From Candidatus Kuenenia stuttgartensis (lineage in GTDB: Bacteria > Planctomycetota > Planctomycetia > Planctomycetales > Planctomycetaceae): a DNA stretch of 32,609 bases. Each line of letters starts with the position of its first letter. Positions within the stretch are counted from its first letter, which is position 1. A program made the translations under genes and the position numbers. Shown here one piece after another: positions 13,651-31,940 of the stretch. Under the pieces are notes generated by a model that was not told where the DNA came from, did no database searches, and was given only the letters and a program-made list of their open reading frames with translations. The stretch is from positions 1 through 32,609 of the forward strand of contig CAMDRI010000053.1 in assembly GCA_945906725.1 (NCBI GenBank). The letters are read 5' to 3'.

Positions 13651-14361
13651 CTATGCACGCTTCGCCGCCAAAAAAACCTTGATCGCTTCGACCTGACGAT
13701 ACTCGCCGCGAGTGCCGCACATTTGGCCGTTTTTGAACCAGCCGGTCCAGCCGAAACGGCACAAGTGCGCCGAATAATAGACGTCAAACCGGTCGGCCCC
13801 CTCTGCCATTTCGACCCAGATCGCTTCGAGTCGTCGGTTCTGACCGCGAGTGCCGCAGTAATTCCCGTGATCGACCCAAGGTGTGTCCCCTTTGACCGAC
13901 AGATGAGCTTTGTACCGCAACGCGACACCTTCGACGGGTGGAGTCACTCGCAGCGTGAAACCTTCGAGTCGGCGACCGGTGCCGGCAGCACCGCACTCGG
14001 TGAGCTGCGGTCGCCACGACGTGTCGCCTCGATCTTGCACATGCACGAGCGCCTCAGCCTGTACGAGTTGGCTCGGTTCGGGCAGCATCGCGGATGATTG
14101 TCCAGCGAGGTCGCCACGCATGAAACCTTGCAGGTACGCCTCGACTTTTTCGCGGAGCATGCTGAGCCGCAACGCTCGATTCGCATCGCCACTGCTGGCT
14201 GTGGCGGCGGCAATCTCACCGAAGGCTCGAATCACTCGGACGAATTGCGGTCCGAGCGGCGTCCCATTGCCGGTGGCGGACTGGAAATACTCCTCACACC
14301 AACGGACCACCGCCTCGAACGAATCCGTCAATTTCGCCGACTGGTCCGTACTGTCTGCCAT
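13651..14361 (-). CDS. Protein with three ChW-type repeats
   Basis: The 236-residue protein has a helical N-terminal region (about 1-90) and three repeats of about 35 residues (about 104-139, 149-185 and 195-231). Each repeat carries an aromatic or charged start (VHVQDRG, YKAHLSVKG, YSAHLCRFG), a Trp, a central Gly, and the ending GTxGxxRRLEAI or a close variant (GTGRRLEGF, GTRGQNRRLEAI, GTRGEYRQVEAI). This matches the clostridial hydrophobic-with-conserved-W (ChW) repeat. In clostridia these repeats are on secreted proteins and are thought to bind proteins or glycans. Here there is no signal peptide, so a cytoplasmic scaffold role is possible. It appears to be the first gene of the five-gene minus-strand operon and is divergent from the gamma-glutamyltransferase gene. 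Confidence 0.75.
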   Translation of the reverse strand: MADSTDQSAKLTDSFEAVVRWCEEYFQSATGNGTPLGPQFVRVIRAFGEIAAATASSGDANRALRLSMLREKVEAYLQGFMRGDLAGQSSAMLPEPSQLVQAEALVHVQDRGDTSWRPQLTECGAAGTGRRLEGFTLRVTPPVEGVALRYKAHLSVKGDTPWVDHGNYCGTRGQNRRLEAIWVEMAEGADRFDVYYSAHLCRFGWTGWFKNGQMCGTRGEYRQVEAIKVFLAAKRA

Positions 14362-14450
14362 ACGTTGATCCTACTTGAGACTGGCTACCTGAGGGCCGGT
14401 CGGATTATGAGAGTGACCAGCGTCGGCGTACAGCAGGCCGGAGTCTGGAT

Positions 14451-14464
14451 GCAGAAGGCAGAAG
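14451..14464 (+). repeat. Two heptamers upstream of the gamma-glutamyltransferase start
   Basis: GCAGAAG occurs twice in tandem, ending six bases before ATG 14470. The AGAAGG it contains could serve as a weak ribosome binding site. The unit resembles the GGCAGTA heptamers at 31844-31940. Confidence 0.5.
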
Positions 14465-14469
14465 GCATT

Positions 14470-16182
14470 ATGTTTGCGAGTCGTGCTGGAAGAGTAGTGA
14501 CGGTCATCGCGCTGGTCTCTGGCTTGGCAATCCCGACGGATGCTGTGCGAAGTGAAGACGCCGTCTATCAACACGGTGCGGTCGCTGCCGATCATGCGCT
14601 GGCCAGCGAGGTCGGCGTCGAAATTCTCAAACAGGGCGGTAACGTCGTCGATGCGGCGGCGGCAGTCGGCTTCGCACTGTCGGTGCTCCGGCCGGCGAGT
14701 TCCGGCATCGGCGGCGGCGGATTCATGCTGATCTGGGACGCCAAGGAGCAACGCTGCATCGTGCTCGATTACCGAGAGCGAGCACCGCTGCGCGCGACTG
14801 CCGAGATGTTCGCCGTGGGGCATGTTTCCAACGTGCCCCACGCGAGTGTCTGCGGACCGTTGGCCGCCGCCGTTCCGGGACACGTTGCCGGATTGTGCCA
14901 CGCGATCGAGAAGTACGGTCGACTGCCGATCGCGAAGGTTGTTGCGCCGGCGATTCGATTGGCACGTGACGGAGTGCCGGCCGACGCGCATTTCGTCAAG
15001 ACGAGGAAGTCCGCCGTAGCAACATGGTCGAAGTGGCCGAAAGATTTTCGAGACCAGTTCATGGCCTTCCACAATTCGTACCTGTTGACCGGCAAGTCGA
15101 TCAAAGAGGGAGACACGGTGACGTCCCCACAGCTTCCGGCGCTGGAACAGATCGCCGCTCGCGGAGCTGCCGGGTTTTATTCCGGCCCTGTTGCCGAGTC
15201 GCTGTTCGAACTGAGCCGGAAGAACGGCGGGCTGTTCACAGCCGAGGACTTTCGCGACGTGCAACCGGTGCGGCGCGAACCGCTCAAGCTGAGCTATCAC
15301 GGTTACGACGTGCTGACGATGCCACCACCATCGAGCGGCGGAATCGCGATGGTCACGACGCTGCAAATTCTCGAAGAGTTGGACGCCAAGATGCCAAGTT
15401 CTTCGGAAGCGGAGTCCGCTCACCGATTAACCGAAGCCTTCAAGCACGCCTTCGCCGACCGAGCCGAATTCCTCGGCGATGCCGACTTCACCGAGGTGCC
15501 CGTATCAAAGCTCATCAGCCGCGAACACGCTCGTGAACTCGCATCGCGGATTGACCTCAAGCACACGCAGCCAACGAAATCCTACGGACGATTTGCGCCG
15601 GTCAACGATTCGGGGACGACGCACTTTTCAGTCATCGACGCGGACGGCAACGCGGTCGCTTGTACGGAAACCGTCAACACCGAATACGGCAGTTGGATCG
15701 TCGAGCCGAAATTCGGCATCCTGCTCAATAATGAGATGGACGACTTCGCCGCCGTCCCCGGCCAGCCGAATGCATTCGGCCTGATCCAGAGTTCGGCGAA
15801 TGCGATCGCTCCGCGCAAGAAGCCCTTGTCCAGTATGACGCCAACGATCGTGGTGAAGGACGGCAAAGCAGTGTTCGCTCTCGGTGCCGCTGGTGGGCCG
15901 CGAATCATCACGGCCACAACTCAAGTCTTGCTCAATCTGATCCACCGCAACCAGACGCCGGCCGCGGCCGTGCAGGCTCCGCGATTACACCATCAGTGGT
16001 TGCCCGATGTGCTCGATTTGGAACCGCGTCTGCACCGTGACTTGCGCGATCCGCTGACGGCGTTGGGGCACAAGGCGCAAGAACGAAGAGGTAATGCAGT
16101 CACGCAAGCGGTCTCGCGAACGACAGATGGTCTTCGAGCCGGCAGCGACGCACGCAAAGGGGGCCGGCCAGCGGGCTGGTAG
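14470..16182 (+). CDS. ggt: Gamma-glutamyltransferase / glutathione hydrolase
   Basis: The 570-residue protein belongs to the gamma-glutamyltranspeptidase N-terminal-nucleophile hydrolases, which cleave gamma-glutamyl bonds of glutathione and related peptides in the periplasm. A signal peptide is visible (about 1-24, GRVVTVIALVSGLAIP). The N-terminal chain has GGNVVDAAAAVGFAL and GIGGGGFMLIW. Autocleavage is expected before Thr383 in GTTHFSV, which becomes the nucleophile. CTETVNTEYGS and PLSSMTPTIV (oxyanion hole) follow, then GAAGGPRIITATTQ. About nine residues near 116-124 (VGHVSNVPH) are encoded by an in-frame palindrome. ATG 14470 is preferred because it gives a clean signal peptide; ATG 14407 is possible. 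The stop is directly followed by an ATG of the next gene. Confidence 0.9.
   Translation: MFASRAGRVVTVIALVSGLAIPTDAVRSEDAVYQHGAVAADHALASEVGVEILKQGGNVVDAAAAVGFALSVLRPASSGIGGGGFMLIWDAKEQRCIVLDYRERAPLRATAEMFAVGHVSNVPHASVCGPLAAAVPGHVAGLCHAIEKYGRLPIAKVVAPAIRLARDGVPADAHFVKTRKSAVATWSKWPKDFRDQFMAFHNSYLLTGKSIKEGDTVTSPQLPALEQIAARGAAGFYSGPVAESLFELSRKNGGLFTAEDFRDVQPVRREPLKLSYHGYDVLTMPPPSSGGIAMVTTLQILEELDAKMPSSSEAESAHRLTEAFKHAFADRAEFLGDADFTEVPVSKLISREHARELASRIDLKHTQPTKSYGRFAPVNDSGTTHFSVIDADGNAVACTETVNTEYGSWIVEPKFGILLNNEMDDFAAVPGQPNAFGLIQSSANAIAPRKKPLSSMTPTIVVKDGKAVFALGAAGGPRIITATTQVLLNLIHRNQTPAAAVQAPRLHHQWLPDVLDLEPRLHRDLRDPLTALGHKAQERRGNAVTQAVSRTTDGLRAGSDARKGGRPAGW
14815..14841. repeat. In-frame palindrome inside the gamma-glutamyltransferase gene
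   Basis: Twelve-base arms (14815-14826 and 14830-14841) surround three bases, with one G-T wobble. The coded peptide VGHVSNVPH replaces the usual surface loop before the LAAAVPG segment. It belongs to the same general class as 10819-10869 (GGGGCANGTT core). Confidence 0.85.
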
Positions 16183-17097
16183 ATGACGGTCAACGACGCG
16201 CGAAGATTTCAAGAGGAGTGCAAAGTGAAGAGCGCAAAGTGCAGAGTTCAAACTGTAGGCAGACTTGTGTTCTGCACTTTGCACTTTGCACTCTGCACTC
16301 TGCACTTTGCAGTGACTCCCCTGGTTGCTGATCAGCCTGTGCTCGCTGCGAAGTCCGCGGGCATTCCAACAAACCTAGATCCGAGTTGGCTCGAATCGAC
16401 AAAGCATCCGCAGACCGGTTTGCTATCTCGCAACGTTCGACCGGAAGAAGCCGTCGGCTACTTTGCAATTTTGAATCACGCTCGGCAGTTATCGCCGGCC
16501 GAACTCAAATCGGCCGCGATCAGGTTTCAGACGGAACGACTCGCCGCGATCCAGCGTGATCCAAATTTCCGATTCTATTTCCGAAAACCAGACGCCGACT
16601 TTCCGACGTTCGCGGACCTGCACCGCCATCCCGAGGCGTATCACGGACGGGTGGTCACGTTGCGTGGACATCTGCGTCGTCTGATTTCGTCGCCGGCCGG
16701 CGCGAACGCTCACGGCTTGCAACAACTGCATGAGGCGTGGCTGTACGTTGACGGCGCTCAGCAGAATCCGGTCGTCGTCGTCTGTACCGAGTTTCCGCCG
16801 AACATTCCGACCGGCAGTGATATTCTCGTCGACTTCGTGTCTGCGACCGGGTACTTCTTCAAGCGATACGGCTACGAGGATCGCTCCGGGCAGCCGCGAT
16901 TCGCGCCGCTGATTTTGGCTCAGCGGTTGGAGTGGTCTCCGCGACCGACGGGCTCGGACTGGGCGTCCAAAAGGACGATGTTTGGGCTCACGCTGGGAAC
17001 AGCCGCCGTGATTGCAGGCGGGTTGTGGCTGGCGTCGCGATCTCGTCGGGGGACCGGACGTGGGCGTCCGGTCTACGATTCTCAATCGGTCGAGTGA
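16183..17097 (+). CDS. Membrane-anchored protein of unknown function with repeat-encoded signal segment
   Basis: The product is 304 residues from ATG 16183, which directly follows the ggt stop. A GTG at 16225 may be the real start, because AAGAGGAG at 16211-16218 lies seven bases upstream. That start would give a normal signal peptide: a basic N-region (KSAKCR) and then the hydrophobic LVFCTLHFALCTLHFAVTPLVA. The hydrophobic part is encoded by the heptamer array at 16216-16311. The mature part has a globular domain (about 125-250) with YHGRVVTLRGHLRRL, VVVVCTEFPPNIPTG and GYFFKRYGYE, possibly an OB-like beta barrel. A C-terminal helix (about 268-287) is followed by Arg-rich residues. I recognise no named family. 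Confidence 0.65.
   Translation: MTVNDARRFQEECKVKSAKCRVQTVGRLVFCTLHFALCTLHFAVTPLVADQPVLAAKSAGIPTNLDPSWLESTKHPQTGLLSRNVRPEEAVGYFAILNHARQLSPAELKSAAIRFQTERLAAIQRDPNFRFYFRKPDADFPTFADLHRHPEAYHGRVVTLRGHLRRLISSPAGANAHGLQQLHEAWLYVDGAQQNPVVVVCTEFPPNIPTGSDILVDFVSATGYFFKRYGYEDRSGQPRFAPLILAQRLEWSPRPTGSDWASKRTMFGLTLGTAAVIAGGLWLASRSRRGTGRGRPVYDSQSVE
16216..16311. repeat. Inverted array of heptamers encoding a signal-peptide core
   Basis: Five degenerate heptamers of the RAGTGCA type (16216-16250) are followed by a 22-base spacer and five and a half heptamers of the complementary TGCACTY type (16273-16311). The two halves can pair, so the array is both tandem and palindromic. It lies at the start of the coding region of the 304-residue protein. 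Confidence 0.85.
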
Positions 17098-17320: not shown

Positions 17321-18205
17321 ATGTTTTCTCGTTGGCGTCCCTGGGCTTTGGTTGGTGCGCTGGCGGTGAGCTTGGTGGCTCCCGGAATTTCAGCGGACTC
17401 GAAGAAGGAAACCAAACGGAAAGTCATTCCGGCACAAAAGGTTGACGAGTCGCTGGATCACCTCGACGTGTTCGAGGGGATCGAAAAGGGTGTGCTCGAC
17501 GTGAAGATGATTCCCAAGGATGCGATGGGCGGCAACATGCTCATCGAGAACAAAGGGGACAAGCCGCTCAACGTAGACTTCCCGGGGGCGTTCATCGGCA
17601 AGCAAGTGCTGAAGCAGTTCGGCGGCGGTGGCCAACAAGGGGGCGGTGGTGGCGGTCAGCAAGGTGGTGGTGGCGGTGGCCAGCAGCAAGGTGGCGGCGG
17701 CGGTGGTGGCCAGCAGGGTGGAGGTGGTGGCTTCGGTGGCGGTGGTCAACAAGGTGGCGGTGGCGGTGGCGGCGGATTCTTCTCCGTGCCTGCCGACAAA
17801 GTTGTACGCGTCACGTATCGTTCGGTCTGTCTCGAACATGGGAAGGCAGAGCCCACATCACGAATGACCTATCGCATCGCCAAAGTCGAGGAGTTCAGCA
17901 GCGACCCAGTCTTAACGGAAATTCTGGGGATGGTGTCCGATGGAAAACTCGATCCGCAAGCCGGTCAAGCCGCGACTTGGCATCTCACGGACAAGATGAG
18001 CTGGGAGCAACTCGAGGCGAAGTCGATTCCGCACATCGGGCGTCCCGCGTCGCCGTACTTCTCGGCCGAGACTCTGGCTCGTGCGAAGAATATCCACGTC
18101 ACGGCGGTGGCTCGTGTGAAAGAGCGTGAAGAGAATTCCGGCAAGTCGGCGGTCGCTTCGGCCAAGAACAGCCGTGCCACCTCCGCGACGGTGAAACGCG
18201 ACTAA
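17321..18205 (+). CDS. Secreted protein with Gly/Gln-rich low-complexity block
   Basis: The 294-residue protein has a signal peptide (about 1-25, WALVGALAVSLVAPGISA). Residues 26-99 form a conserved-looking domain (LDHLDVFEGIEKGVLDVKMIPKD). Residues 100-153 are almost only Gly and Gln, as runs of GG-QQ-GGGGGG. The C-terminal part (about 154-294) has YRSVCLEHGKAEPTSRMTYRI and a lysine/serine/alanine-rich tail. The layout suggests two globular parts joined by a flexible linker, outside the cytoplasm. AAAGGA at 17308-17313 is a good ribosome binding site for ATG 17321. I know of similar planctomycete hypothetical proteins but no function. Confidence 0.7.
   Translation: MFSRWRPWALVGALAVSLVAPGISADSKKETKRKVIPAQKVDESLDHLDVFEGIEKGVLDVKMIPKDAMGGNMLIENKGDKPLNVDFPGAFIGKQVLKQFGGGGQQGGGGGGQQGGGGGGQQQGGGGGGGQQGGGGGFGGGGQQGGGGGGGGFFSVPADKVVRVTYRSVCLEHGKAEPTSRMTYRIAKVEEFSSDPVLTEILGMVSDGKLDPQAGQAATWHLTDKMSWEQLEAKSIPHIGRPASPYFSAETLARAKNIHVTAVARVKEREENSGKSAVASAKNSRATSATVKRD
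17621..17780 (+). repeat. GGT/GGC-CAG/CAA simple-sequence block
   Basis: About 160 bases are dominated by GGT/GGC and CAA/CAG codons. The repeat unit is a multiple of three, so length changes would preserve the reading frame and vary the linker of the secreted protein. Confidence 0.85.
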
Positions 18206-24350: not shown

Positions 24351-25727
24351 TCAATGTTTCTTCTTCTTTTTCTTCTTTTCGTGATCATGGTCATGGCTGT
24401 GATCATGGTCATGTCCGCCGTCGTGATCGTGTGAATGATCGTGGTCATGGCAGACATCATGGTCGTGGCTGCGGTCATCGTCATGCGAATGAGCGCGGTC
24501 GTGGTCGTGGCCATGGCCATGGTCATGGTCATGGTCATGCTGCTCAAATACGGCTTCGAGGTGCTTGGCATAAGCCTGCTCGGCTGTGCGATAAACCTCG
24601 CGAATCGGTATTCGGCGTTCGGCAGCGATCTTCGCGCAGGAGTCGAATTCTGGCGTAAACAGCGGCCGTTCGCCGTGACGCCAGCCGAGCTTGCCATGCA
24701 GTTGGCCGATCGGAGTTTCAATGACGCACGATTGCCGAGCACGCTTCGAGCGTTGCATCAACGAGCGACGGATGCCGAACGTCGCAGTCTCGGTGAAGAT
24801 AATGTCTTCCATCTGGTCCATGTCAGACGGTCGGCAGAGGACGCTCAGCAACACGCCGGGGCGATTCTTTTTCATTTGGATCGGTGTCGTGAAAACTTCA
24901 ACCGCTCCCGCCTCGAACAGTTTTTGTTTCGTGTATCCGATGACCTCCGGCGAAACATCGTCCAGGTTCGTTTCGAGTTGAATGACCTCGTCCGATTCCG
25001 GCAGCGTCGTGCTCTCGCCGACGAACAACCGCAGGAGGTTGGCTCGATCGGGGAAGTCGCGGCCACCCGCTCCGTAGCCGATCGCCTCGACGGTCATCGG
25101 CGGCAAGGCCGAATACCTCGTGACGAGGGCTTTCAGAATCGCGGCACCGGTCGGTGTGGTCAGTTCGGCTTCAATCGGCAGATCGACCAGTGGGATTCCT
25201 TTGAGCAACTCGGCCGTGCCGGGAGCTGGCACTGGGCAGATACCGTGAGCAATCTCAATCCGTCCGCGTCCCGTCGGGACCGGGCTGGAGATGACTTCGT
25301 CGACTCCGAGCAAATCAAATCCAATCGCCGCCCCGACGATGTCCACAATCGAGTCGATCGCGCCGACCTCGTGGAAATGAATCTTGTCGAGCGTCGTGCC
25401 ATGCACGCGGGCCTCAGCCTCGGCGATGTGCTGGAAGATTTTCAGAGCAAGTTTCTTTTGCGATTTGGTCAGCTCCTCGGCTCCCTCGATCAGTTTGGTG
25501 ATGTCGGCGAGGTGTCGGTGAGCGTGTTGTTCCGGGTGCTGGACTTCGATCTGCAACGCTCGGAAGCCCCCTTTGACGACCGTCTCGACATGCAGTTCGA
25601 CGTCCGGCAGACCCAGCGAATCAATCCCGCGCACGATCGTTTCGACGTCCGCTCCGGCGTCGATCAGCGCCGCCAAAGTCATGTCGCCGCTGATGCCGCA
25701 AATGCAGTCGAGATACGCAATCCGCAC
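24351..25727 (-). CDS. larC: Nickel-pincer cofactor biosynthesis protein LarC with His/Asp-rich tail
   Basis: The 458-residue protein matches LarC, the CTP-dependent cyclometallase that inserts nickel into the pyridinium-dithiocarboxylate mononucleotide cofactor of lactate racemase-type enzymes. Segments typical of the family are AYLDCICGISGDMTLAALID (about 4-23), KIHFHEVGAIDSIVDIVGA, TPTGAAILKAL, GYGAGGRDFPDRANLLRL and LETNLDDVSPEVIGY. The last 62 residues (about 397-458) are nearly all His and Asp, with more than 20 His, and end in a lysine run. Such tails bind nickel in HypB- and SlyD-type proteins. The start is GTG 25727, directly before the conserved AYLDC segment; frames extending further upstream cross the divergent folE gene. 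No larA, larB or larE is in the window. Confidence 0.9.
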   Translation of the reverse strand: MRIAYLDCICGISGDMTLAALIDAGADVETIVRGIDSLGLPDVELHVETVVKGGFRALQIEVQHPEQHAHRHLADITKLIEGAEELTKSQKKLALKIFQHIAEAEARVHGTTLDKIHFHEVGAIDSIVDIVGAAIGFDLLGVDEVISSPVPTGRGRIEIAHGICPVPAPGTAELLKGIPLVDLPIEAELTTPTGAAILKALVTRYSALPPMTVEAIGYGAGGRDFPDRANLLRLFVGESTTLPESDEVIQLETNLDDVSPEVIGYTKQKLFEAGAVEVFTTPIQMKKNRPGVLLSVLCRPSDMDQMEDIIFTETATFGIRRSLMQRSKRARQSCVIETPIGQLHGKLGWRHGERPLFTPEFDSCAKIAAERRIPIREVYRTAEQAYAKHLEAVFEQHDHDHDHGHGHDHDRAHSHDDDRSHDHDVCHDHDHSHDHDGGHDHDHSHDHDHEKKKKKKKH

Positions 25728-25780
25728 GGTGAAGTCCTTGAGTTTCGAGGGCTGATCATTGAGGCGGCGGATTCTAGTGG

Positions 25781-25798
25781 TGGTCGGAATGCCGACCA
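25781..25798. repeat. Short hairpin upstream of larC
   Basis: TGGTCGG (25781-25787) and CCGACCA (25792-25798) flank four bases. It lies 54 bases upstream of the larC GTG, in the region between divergent larC and folE, where it might be an operator. No other evidence supports a regulatory role. Confidence 0.4.
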
Positions 25799-25826
25799 AT
25801 GGCAATCGGTGGCAATCTCGACGACA

Positions 25827-25916
25827 CAAAAACGGTAACACGGCTGTCGGCGATCGGCTCACGGCGTTCGGCCGGCCGCCGAATGCCGACAGCCAATTGC
25901 CGTTGTACCGTTTTTG
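25827..25916. repeat. 90-base compound palindrome between larC and folE
   Basis: Outer arms CAAAAACGGTA/TACCGTTTTTG (25827-25837, 25906-25916) and middle arms GGCTGTCGGC/GCCGACAGCC (25842-25851, 25885-25894) are perfect. Inner arms GGCGTTCGGC/GCCGAATGCC (25863-25872, 25878-25887) have one mismatch and overlap the middle arm. The stretch 25728-26031 holds no gene; it must contain both divergent promoters. Confidence 0.8.
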
Positions 25917-26031
25917 AATTTGGCGTGTACGTGGATAGCCGCCAGGATCGCTTCTACAATCCGAGCGTCTTGTAGCGCCGCCGGAACGGAAGCCCGATCC
26001 GACGGCGTTTTGCTTCAACGAAAGCGAGATC

Positions 26032-26619
26032 GTGAGCGATACCTCAGCGAATCCGACAGCAGTGGACTTGCCGCGCATCGAGCGGGCGGTTCGTGAAATC
26101 TTAGCCGCGGTCGGTGAAGACCCGAACCGTGAAGGATTACTCGAGACGCCCGGCCGAGTCGCGCGGATGTACGCCGAGTTGTTCTCTGGCCTGCATTCCG
26201 AGCCGGCTCGGCACCTGCAAAAAGTCTTCACGGAAGATTACGACGAACTGGTGCTCGTGCGCGACATCACGTTCAACAGCATGTGCGAGCACCACCTGTT
26301 ACCGTTCATCGGCAAGGCTCACGTCGGCTACTTGCCCAATGGCAAGATCGCCGGGTTGAGCAAACTGGCTCGTGTCGTCGAAGAGGTCTCGCGCCGGCCG
26401 CAGGTGCAGGAGCGGATGACGCACACGATTGCCGATTTGCTGCACAAGGAACTCGACGCGAAAGGAGTCGTCGTTGTGCTGGAGGCGGAGCACTCCTGCA
26501 TGTCGATTCGCGGCGTGAAGAAGCCCGGCAGCATTACGATTACCAGCGCGGTGCGCGGCCTGTTTCTCACGAATCAATCCAGCCGCGCCGAAGTCATGTC
26601 GCTGATCAATCAGAGGTAG
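26032..26619 (+). CDS. folE: GTP cyclohydrolase I
   Basis: The 195-residue protein matches FolE type I, which converts GTP to 7,8-dihydroneopterin triphosphate, the first step of folate and tetrahydrobiopterin synthesis. The zinc ligands are visible: Cys85 and His88 in MCEHHLLPF, and Cys156 in [17 protein letters not shown] (about 40-48), [18 protein letters not shown] and RPQVQERMT are also conserved. Length is normal for the family (about 190-220). The start is GTG 26032, supported by the AAAGCGAGAT stretch just upstream, although no strong Shine-Dalgarno is seen. It is divergent from larC and followed after eight bases by the membrane protein gene, which suggests co-transcription. Confidence 0.95.

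Positions 26620-31414: not shown

Positions 31415-31940
<526 letters not shown>

Follow-up and report, generated by a model that had tools for sequence, protein, structure and literature searches.

A dispersed heptamer inverted repeat as the predicted signal peptide of a probably exported protein in Candidatus Kuenenia stuttgartensis

In a stretch of 32,609 nucleotides from Candidatus Kuenenia stuttgartensis, analyzed here as a whole (the window), one copy of a dispersed heptamer inverted repeat at 16216-16311 has in all likelihood become the predicted Sec-type signal peptide of the gene at 16183-17097. According to the model that we propose, the left arm of the element would provide the positive n-region, the right arm the hydrophobic core and the host sequence TPLVA|DQ the cleavage region. 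Since such elements are stop-free, frame-independent and basic-then-hydrophobic from either strand, a copy arriving at the start of an exported gene, whether by landing there or by being copied in, would often be tolerated or useful as a signal. In the case of genes that carry the hydrophobic arm and do not look exported, the start codon would lie after this arm. In the window gene the element would have replaced an older, ordinary signal, and later point mutations could raise hydrophobicity and erase the repeat, as may have happened in one relative (G003). The repeat, its frame, its dispersal, the differences among orthologues and a site empty in one genome and occupied in another, in a second family, are directly observed; export, cleavage, movement of the element, the ancestral state and the start codon we infer. 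A wider reading, for which we see even chances, is that certain 7-nt units, when arranged as inverted arrays, serve as interchangeable signal-peptide cassettes, any copy at a gene start being able to supply a secretion signal. Within the genus these cassettes would have been repeatedly inserted, converted between heptamer types and eroded, with export signals turning over much faster than the mature proteins.

Results

The heptamer element

The window is contig C53 of a genome (G000) of 5.45 Mb in 268 contigs. The heptamer array lies at 16216-16311, where the initial annotation had placed it, and is an inverted repeat composed of a purine-rich RAGTGCA-type arm, a spacer and a TGCACTY arm. TRF reports 16216-16252 with a period of 14 (2.6 copies) and 16273-16311 with a period of 7 (5.6 copies, 93% matches), and 16219-16258 pairs with 16272-16311 over 40 nt (83% complementary, 13 nt between the arms). 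Based on repeat detection, arm pairing and translation, the left arm (16216-16258, plus strand) consists of imperfect RAGTGCA-type heptamers encoding the basic n-region KVKSAKCRVQ. It is separated by the spacer (16259-16271) from the right arm (16272-16311), 5.6 copies of TGCACTY encoding most of the hydrophobic core, CTLHFALCTLHFA. In the frame of the open reading frame (ORF) 16183-17097 the right arm reads FCTLHFALCTLHFA(V) and the complete core is LVFCTLHFALCTLHFAV. The earlier assignment of hydrophobic residues to TGCACTY and basic ones to RAGTGCA thus holds in this frame, with the left arm imperfect. The idea that the repeat alone would make up a working signal agrees with the sequence as regards the n-region and the core and has to be corrected for the putative cleavage region, TPLVA|DQ, which falls outside the repeat.

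The feature that exceeds chance is the array and not the single unit. A lone TGCACTY occurs 12 times in the whole window against 7.8 expected, a count reached by 10 of 100 shuffles and therefore no significant enrichment. The 18-mer TGCACTYTGCACTYTGCA has 35 matches in G000 (22 + 13) and its reversed-pattern control none, and 811 kb of this genome contain 22 tandem arrays of period 7 compared to only 0-5 for every other period from 4 to 15. The array shares its tandem 7-nt unit with STRR-like heptamer repeats, and its many copies and inverted-repeat structure with dispersed palindromes of the RPE or MITE kind. With the family dispersed and many of its loci intergenic or in front of a gene, the suggested origin in noncoding repeat DNA gains support.

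The window contains other repeats. A perfect AGGCAGT array of 13.9 copies at 31844-31940, intergenic by the gene calls, belongs to a different heptamer family and has a stop codon in all frames of that strand. A degenerate 18/54-nt tandem repeat at 24381-24539 lies inside the overlapping ORFs 24351-26231 (minus strand) and 24435-25838 (plus strand).

Coding properties of heptamer arrays

Because 7 and 3 share no factor, a heptamer array reads the same cycle in every frame. (TGCACTT)n gives CTLHFAL in all frames and the opposite arm KCKVQSA, both strands are stop-free, and GTG occurs in every frame of TGCACTY. The purine arm comes first from either strand: in all three G000 loci in which the strict pattern detects both arms, the minus-strand match precedes the plus-strand match. 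The encoded peptide is therefore basic-then-hydrophobic in either orientation. TGCACTT is only moderately special in this respect, ranking 209th in hydropathy among 1180 stop-free heptamer classes, and about a tenth of all classes (220 of 2344) pass a similar two-faced test. This amounts to a predisposition rather than a unique code.

The host gene and its start codon

The host gene directly follows a gamma-glutamyltranspeptidase gene (14098-16182, plus strand; ORF and Pfam scan). The stop codon TAG of the latter (16180-16182) abuts a candidate start ATG (16183-16185) that is present in G000, G007, G006 and the decayed orthologue of G003. From this ATG, the ORF (16183-17097, plus strand) encodes 304 amino acids beginning with MTVNDARRFQEECKVKSAKCRVQTVGRLVFCTLHFALCTLHFAVTPLVADQ; translation and structure model point to a probably exported protein with a repeat-encoded signal, an OB-fold-like domain and a C-terminal helix. 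A candidate GTG start (16225-16227) within the left arm and the ribosome-binding-like AAGAGGAG (16211-16218) are present as the initial annotation described them. The GTG is preceded by GGAG at a distance of 6 nt, and both the GTG and the GGAG core are retained in all four TGCACTY-bearing orthologues. A predicted hairpin stem encloses GTG 16225 and part of its ribosome-binding site, which favors coupled initiation at ATG 16183. Either start yields a basic n-region followed by the same core.

The n-region has a positive net charge before the core (+4 in G000, +6 in G007, +2 in G006 and +2 in G003), as in a signal peptide. The best 12-residue mean hydropathy (1.95, 1.95, 2.01 and 2.65, respectively) also lies in the signal range, at its low end in three of the four. 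The c-region VTPLVA (16312-16329) is located outside the repeat and would be cleaved after Ala49 (LVA|DQ); small residues at -3/-1, in LVA|DQ and LFA|DQ, were read by inspection only.

Relatives of the protein were found in 53 of the 59 genomes searched. A Pfam scan assigned no family to it, and a sequence search of solved structures returned best matches of only E 0.43-0.45. The structure model (mean pLDDT 67.8) comprises an N-terminal helix, a five-stranded part (residues 157-251; 16651-16935) and a C-terminal helix (residues 257-289; 16951-17049), whose sequence suggests a membrane anchor. A fold search with the model retrieved OB folds of the SSB and AspRS (aspartyl-tRNA synthetase) types at E ~1e-3 (best 5.5e-4), the best match having a low TM-score (0.20 of the query, 0.44 of the target). 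The modeled strands thus weakly resemble the OB folds of these proteins. Judging from the N-termini of the orthologues and the C-terminal helix, the protein is probably exported and membrane-anchored. The adjoining ORF 17321-18205 has a hydrophobic N-terminus, contains a long low-complexity stretch rich in Gly and Gln, and matched no Pfam family.

Orthologues of the host gene

Eleven of the 12 genus genomes, including G000, carry a close orthologue, and G009 has a distant relative only. The TGCACTY array is found in G000, G007 and G006, and the same segment with a decayed array (VKNAECRTQHERRLVICALHIALCALHGAMAPLFADQ) in G003. The orthologues of G008 and G004, from a sister clade, carry another heptamer, TTGCAWT (MQIANWGAAIILQFAFCILHFAIPHSANAQ in G008), with an ATG and a ribosome-binding-like site at the first bases of the array. 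Ordinary and mutually similar signals occur in G005, G011, G002 and G010 (e.g., MSLADILRVACVLSIFVFVLADVSSAQ in G005, or MSQVAKLLRLICLLSLVVVSDNSSVQ), and another hydrophobic, repeat-free N-terminus in G001. The outcome that would have contradicted the initial annotation, repeat-free homologues with the same signal, is not seen: the five repeat-free homologues carry other N-termini, and the signal of G008 and G004 is made of a different heptamer. All genomes are metagenome assemblies, and separate assemblies agree on the array.

Trees place G000, G003, G005, G006, G007 and G011 apart from G002, G004, G008 and G010, and the ordinary signal is found in both groups. The simplest reading is that the ordinary signal came first and that different heptamers took its place on at least two occasions; as regards the order within each group, the trees are compatible with one gain with losses, several gains or recombination. 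The upstream stop and the conserved domain are 189 nt, only 63 codons, apart in the four TGCACTY genomes, 140 nt in G005 and 134 nt in G011. The window gene thus appears to record the replacement of a signal and not a clean insertion. By hydropathy the raw array is a weak signal, with best 12-residue means of 1.95-2.01 versus 2.25-3.17 in seven ordinary orthologues and with two histidines in the core.

Peptide, RNA hairpin or untranslated leader

The array might be an untranslated 5' leader, open only because such arrays are stop-free, with the true start at GTG 16312 or GTG 16339. Many copies in the genus do lie ahead of an evident gene start (by eye, in 18 of the 41 groups), a codon-usage gene caller put the start at 16339, and TGCACTY-type arrays are open in all frames by arithmetic. 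Nevertheless, we consider this reading highly improbable. No hydrophobic segment remains if translation begins after the repeat (best 12-residue means of 0.88 and 0.55 versus 1.95 with the repeat), and the protein would lack a signal-like segment whereas the five repeat-free genus orthologues begin with one. Moreover, the frame is stop-free also in G003 despite the decayed array, and the ATG of G008 and G004 sits with its ribosome-binding-like site at the very beginning of theirs. If, instead, the element acted mainly by tuning translation through an RNA hairpin at the start site, in coupling to the upstream gene and with the peptide being incidental, this would account for the strong predicted folds in G007 (z -8.1), G006 (z -7.1) and G000 (z -3.2, more stable than 200 of 200 shuffles), the latter covering GTG 16225 and part of AAGAGGAG. 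Yet the hairpin is unexceptional in G003 (z -1.5; 15 of 200 shuffles fold equally well) and absent from the ordinary orthologues of G005 (z +0.9) and G011 (z -0.5), while all three have a hydrophobic N-terminus, so that little likelihood is left for this role as the main one.

Two further readings accept the peptide. The repeat-encoded helix might remain as an uncleaved signal anchor, giving a protein with two membrane helices. The C-terminal helix of the model and the long, only moderately hydrophobic core of the array agree with such an arrangement; it is nevertheless unlikely, though with some chance, as LVA|DQ or LFA|DQ follows the core in G000, G007, G006 and G003 and an SSAQ-like site is seen in G005 and G011, all by inspection. 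The array might also form a contingency locus, in which gain or loss of one 7-nt unit, by shifting the frame, would switch export off and on. A 7-nt unit shifts the frame in principle, and in the DUF4159 gene of G000 the ATG at the position used by G007 is out of frame with the mature part (read by eye), an upstream ATG being in frame. However, the length from stop to domain is an identical 189 nt in all four TGCACTY orthologues, each sampled by one genome per species, and we give this possibility slim prospects. We retain the signal peptide encoded by the repeat as the preferred reading.

The decayed segment of G003 bears on what may be under selection. It keeps an open frame and a charge of +2, and its core is more hydrophobic than that of the raw array (2.65 versus 1.95). 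Simulated mutation of the G007 segment with 23 substitutions gave a stop-free segment as hydrophobic as that of G003 in 0.9% of cases, and of the G006 segment with 25 substitutions in 1.0%. With a 21-residue average the value for G003 is 2.0%, and the lineages of G006 (15%) and G000 (13%) are unremarkable. Within the element amino-acid-changing substitutions outnumber silent ones in six of six pairs, and after the element silent ones prevail in five of six. Since substitutions in the element are mostly amino-acid changing, any constraint would act on its character, not on its sequence. On the strength of this one lineage, the pattern is suggestive of selection for the character of the signal.

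Exchange of signals between orthologues

Six families were compared across the genus. The mature part of the family labeled 'terp' is, relative to G008, 93-97% identical in eight other genomes, 82% in G001 and 81% in G009. Its signal, with repeat units read by eye, consists of TGCACTY in G008, G010, G000 and G007, of CAAATTT units in G002 and G004 (partially in G005), of TTGGTCA units in G006 and of TATTGGC units in G003, and is ordinary in G001 and G009. DUF4159 genes have signals of TGCACTY, TTGCAAW, CAAATTT or a AACCCGAAGCG-type palindrome; none of the 11 orthologues is fully repeat-free, G003 and G005 keeping remnants. A non-heptamer palindrome of the AACCCGAAGCGTCAGCGAGGGC type forms the n-region of the DUF4159 signal in G006, G011 and G009 (L178, L179 and L182; by eye). 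For a cytochrome gene, five genomes have TGCACTY and G011 a different inverted repeat, the signal being ordinary in G001, G002, G004, G008 and G010. A protease gene has TGCACTY or TTGCAWT types, ordinary cores in G001 and G009 and, in G011, the left arm only followed by an ordinary core. In several families the element makes up the n-region and the front of the core, and the signal continues as host sequence in its second half; for the window gene and the protease, the core is the array itself.

An empty site is visible in the family of locus L092. G000 has a signal of 29 residues (MTRHQSQLSVFNGLLSLFLLLLAPATLCA), whereas in G007 the flanks TTTTCAA and GGCCTCC are parted by a TGCACTY element of 105 nt, or 35 codons in frame; G005 has a 21-nt form. 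The G000 site may never have been occupied, or it may have lost the element cleanly. No target-site duplication is visible at the insertion in G007, the one clean site, and the element is therefore not filed as a MITE.

Distribution of the repeats

Of the 12 genus genomes, 8 carry TGCACTY arrays, G000 among them; across the phylum, 4 of 294 sampled genomes do, the window's own being one of these. An outside match, G201 (L246), has a signal-like N-terminus of mixed heptamers and no Pfam family, and inspection of the neighborhoods of L247, L248 and L251 was not convincing. For TTGCAWT, 10 of 40 relatives have arrays, and all ten belong to the genus.

A script run over 124 loci, some overlapping, retained right arms of at least three units that are open, in frame, into a coding-like ORF (73 rows, 41 groups). 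An arm was called coding, by eye, if the stretch from arm to domain contains no likely gene start, an internal Met of the signal aside. This is the case in 18 groups (F0, 1, 2, 3, 4, 5, 7, 9, 14, 16, 17, 19, 26, 27, 28, 30, 38 and 40; within F4, the gene L103 may have an ATG farther downstream), all 18 of which have an export-like or membrane N-terminus as judged by eye. In another 18 groups the start lies after the arm (F6, 12, 15, 18, 20, 21, 22, 23, 24, 25, 29, 31, 32, 33, 34, 36, 37 and 39); six of them (F6, 12, 20, 21, 22 and 36) look exported or membrane-bound and 12 do not. Antisense-like (F8, F11 and F13) and ambiguous groups (F10 and F35) were left out of the test. The split of 18/18 versus 6/18 gives p = 1.5e-5 (one-sided Fisher test) and TGCACTY alone (12/0 versus 5/5) p 0.0096, the 36 groups being classified by eye and 'exported' partly judged from the same N-terminus. 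A Pfam scan of ten of these genes found cytochrome c554-type, Trypsin_2 with PDZ, PPC domain, DUF4159, GH32 and Band_7, and nothing above the curated cut-off in the remaining four.

A scan of inverted repeats in 811 kb of G000 gave no clear excess at export-like N-terminal zones (9 in 30.0 kb versus 13 in 62.2 kb elsewhere). Per 100 kb there are 30.0 at export-like N-termini, 20.9 in other N-terminal zones, 46.5 in intergenic regions and 1.4 inside genes, the N-terminal zones spanning up to 105 nt upstream and thereby mixing coding and leader copies. Our claim accordingly rests on the orthologue sets and the split by coding arm.

The hydrophilic arm also occurs by itself. It begins, without a hydrophobic arm, the open frame of one gene in three genomes (group 5; L023, L108 and L132) that we guess to be cytosolic, and lies inside long coding frames at L096 and L115. 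The contigs of L096 (G008) and L115 (G006) have identical element coordinates, printed translation and scores, possibly owing to cross-binning of assemblies or a very recent shared stretch. At L322, L341 and L325 hydrophilic arms (ANCKLQIAN) are found inside long coding-like frames, like Rickettsia palindromic elements. A lipoprotein-like gene of G000 (C12:16030-16872, also L287) has a signal of TTCGTCA heptamers (..SSFVIRHSSFCLSILALLIPLTCTGC), seen as well on a similar lipoprotein of G006 (L285).

Discussion

Short repeats at gene starts are not new. Cyanobacterial STRR are abundant 7-nt tandem repeats often situated just upstream of start codons. The TAACTGA heptamers of Beggiatoaceae are likewise abundant and often just upstream of start codons, where they are candidates for regulation (PMC4679880); they have stops in all three forward frames, whereas the unit described here has no stops on either strand and is apparently translated. 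Rickettsia palindromic elements, palindromes of ~100-150 bp, are inserted in frame in many unrelated genes (PMC10969869, PMC2229807). In the portions of these reports consulted they are placed in metabolic and other proteins, as neutral or slightly harmful, and not described as signal-making, unlike the hydrophobic arm here, which in every classified group where it is coding sits at an N-terminus of the export or membrane type. PARCEL elements are palindromic repeat DNA co-opted in membrane-targeted proteins, yet with 75-nt units that code for amphipathic domains of 25 residues and not for signal peptides (PMC2996958). In yeast, de novo membrane proteins are reported to have arisen from thymine-rich noncoding DNA giving hydrophobic peptides (PMC7005711); that case concerns de novo genes, whereas here repeat arms would come to serve old genes as signals.

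The closest precedent is an enterobacterial MITE, RU-2 (YAPL), from which part of the signal predicted for Yersinia YPO1552 is formed; homologues of YPO1552 have unrelated signals (Delihas; PMC2759123, PMC2229807). Predicted signals or membrane helices are reported in other fusions too. RU-2 is a MITE of ~168 bp in a few putative proteins, compared to heptamer arrays in 18 gene families (by eye) here, and in contrast to it, several kinds of heptamer swap between orthologues and all frames are equivalent. Published reports of heptamer-encoded signals in planctomycetes were not found, in a literature lying mainly outside subscription papers. Within this scope, three features look new: such signals recur, orthologous signals exchange one kind of heptamer for another, and the coding depends on neither frame nor strand.

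The origin and replacement of signal peptides are hard to watch in nature. In the orthologue series described here, ordinary signals can be set beside repeat-made ones, decayed repeats and an empty site, which makes the origin of an export signal from repeat DNA directly traceable and testable. They also offer a simple rule as to why gene starts may tolerate inverted repeats of 7-nt units, and a warning to annotators neither to trim nor to blindly extend N-termini that bear such repeats. Taken at the level of sequence, the comparison suggests that export signals can be made from repeat DNA.
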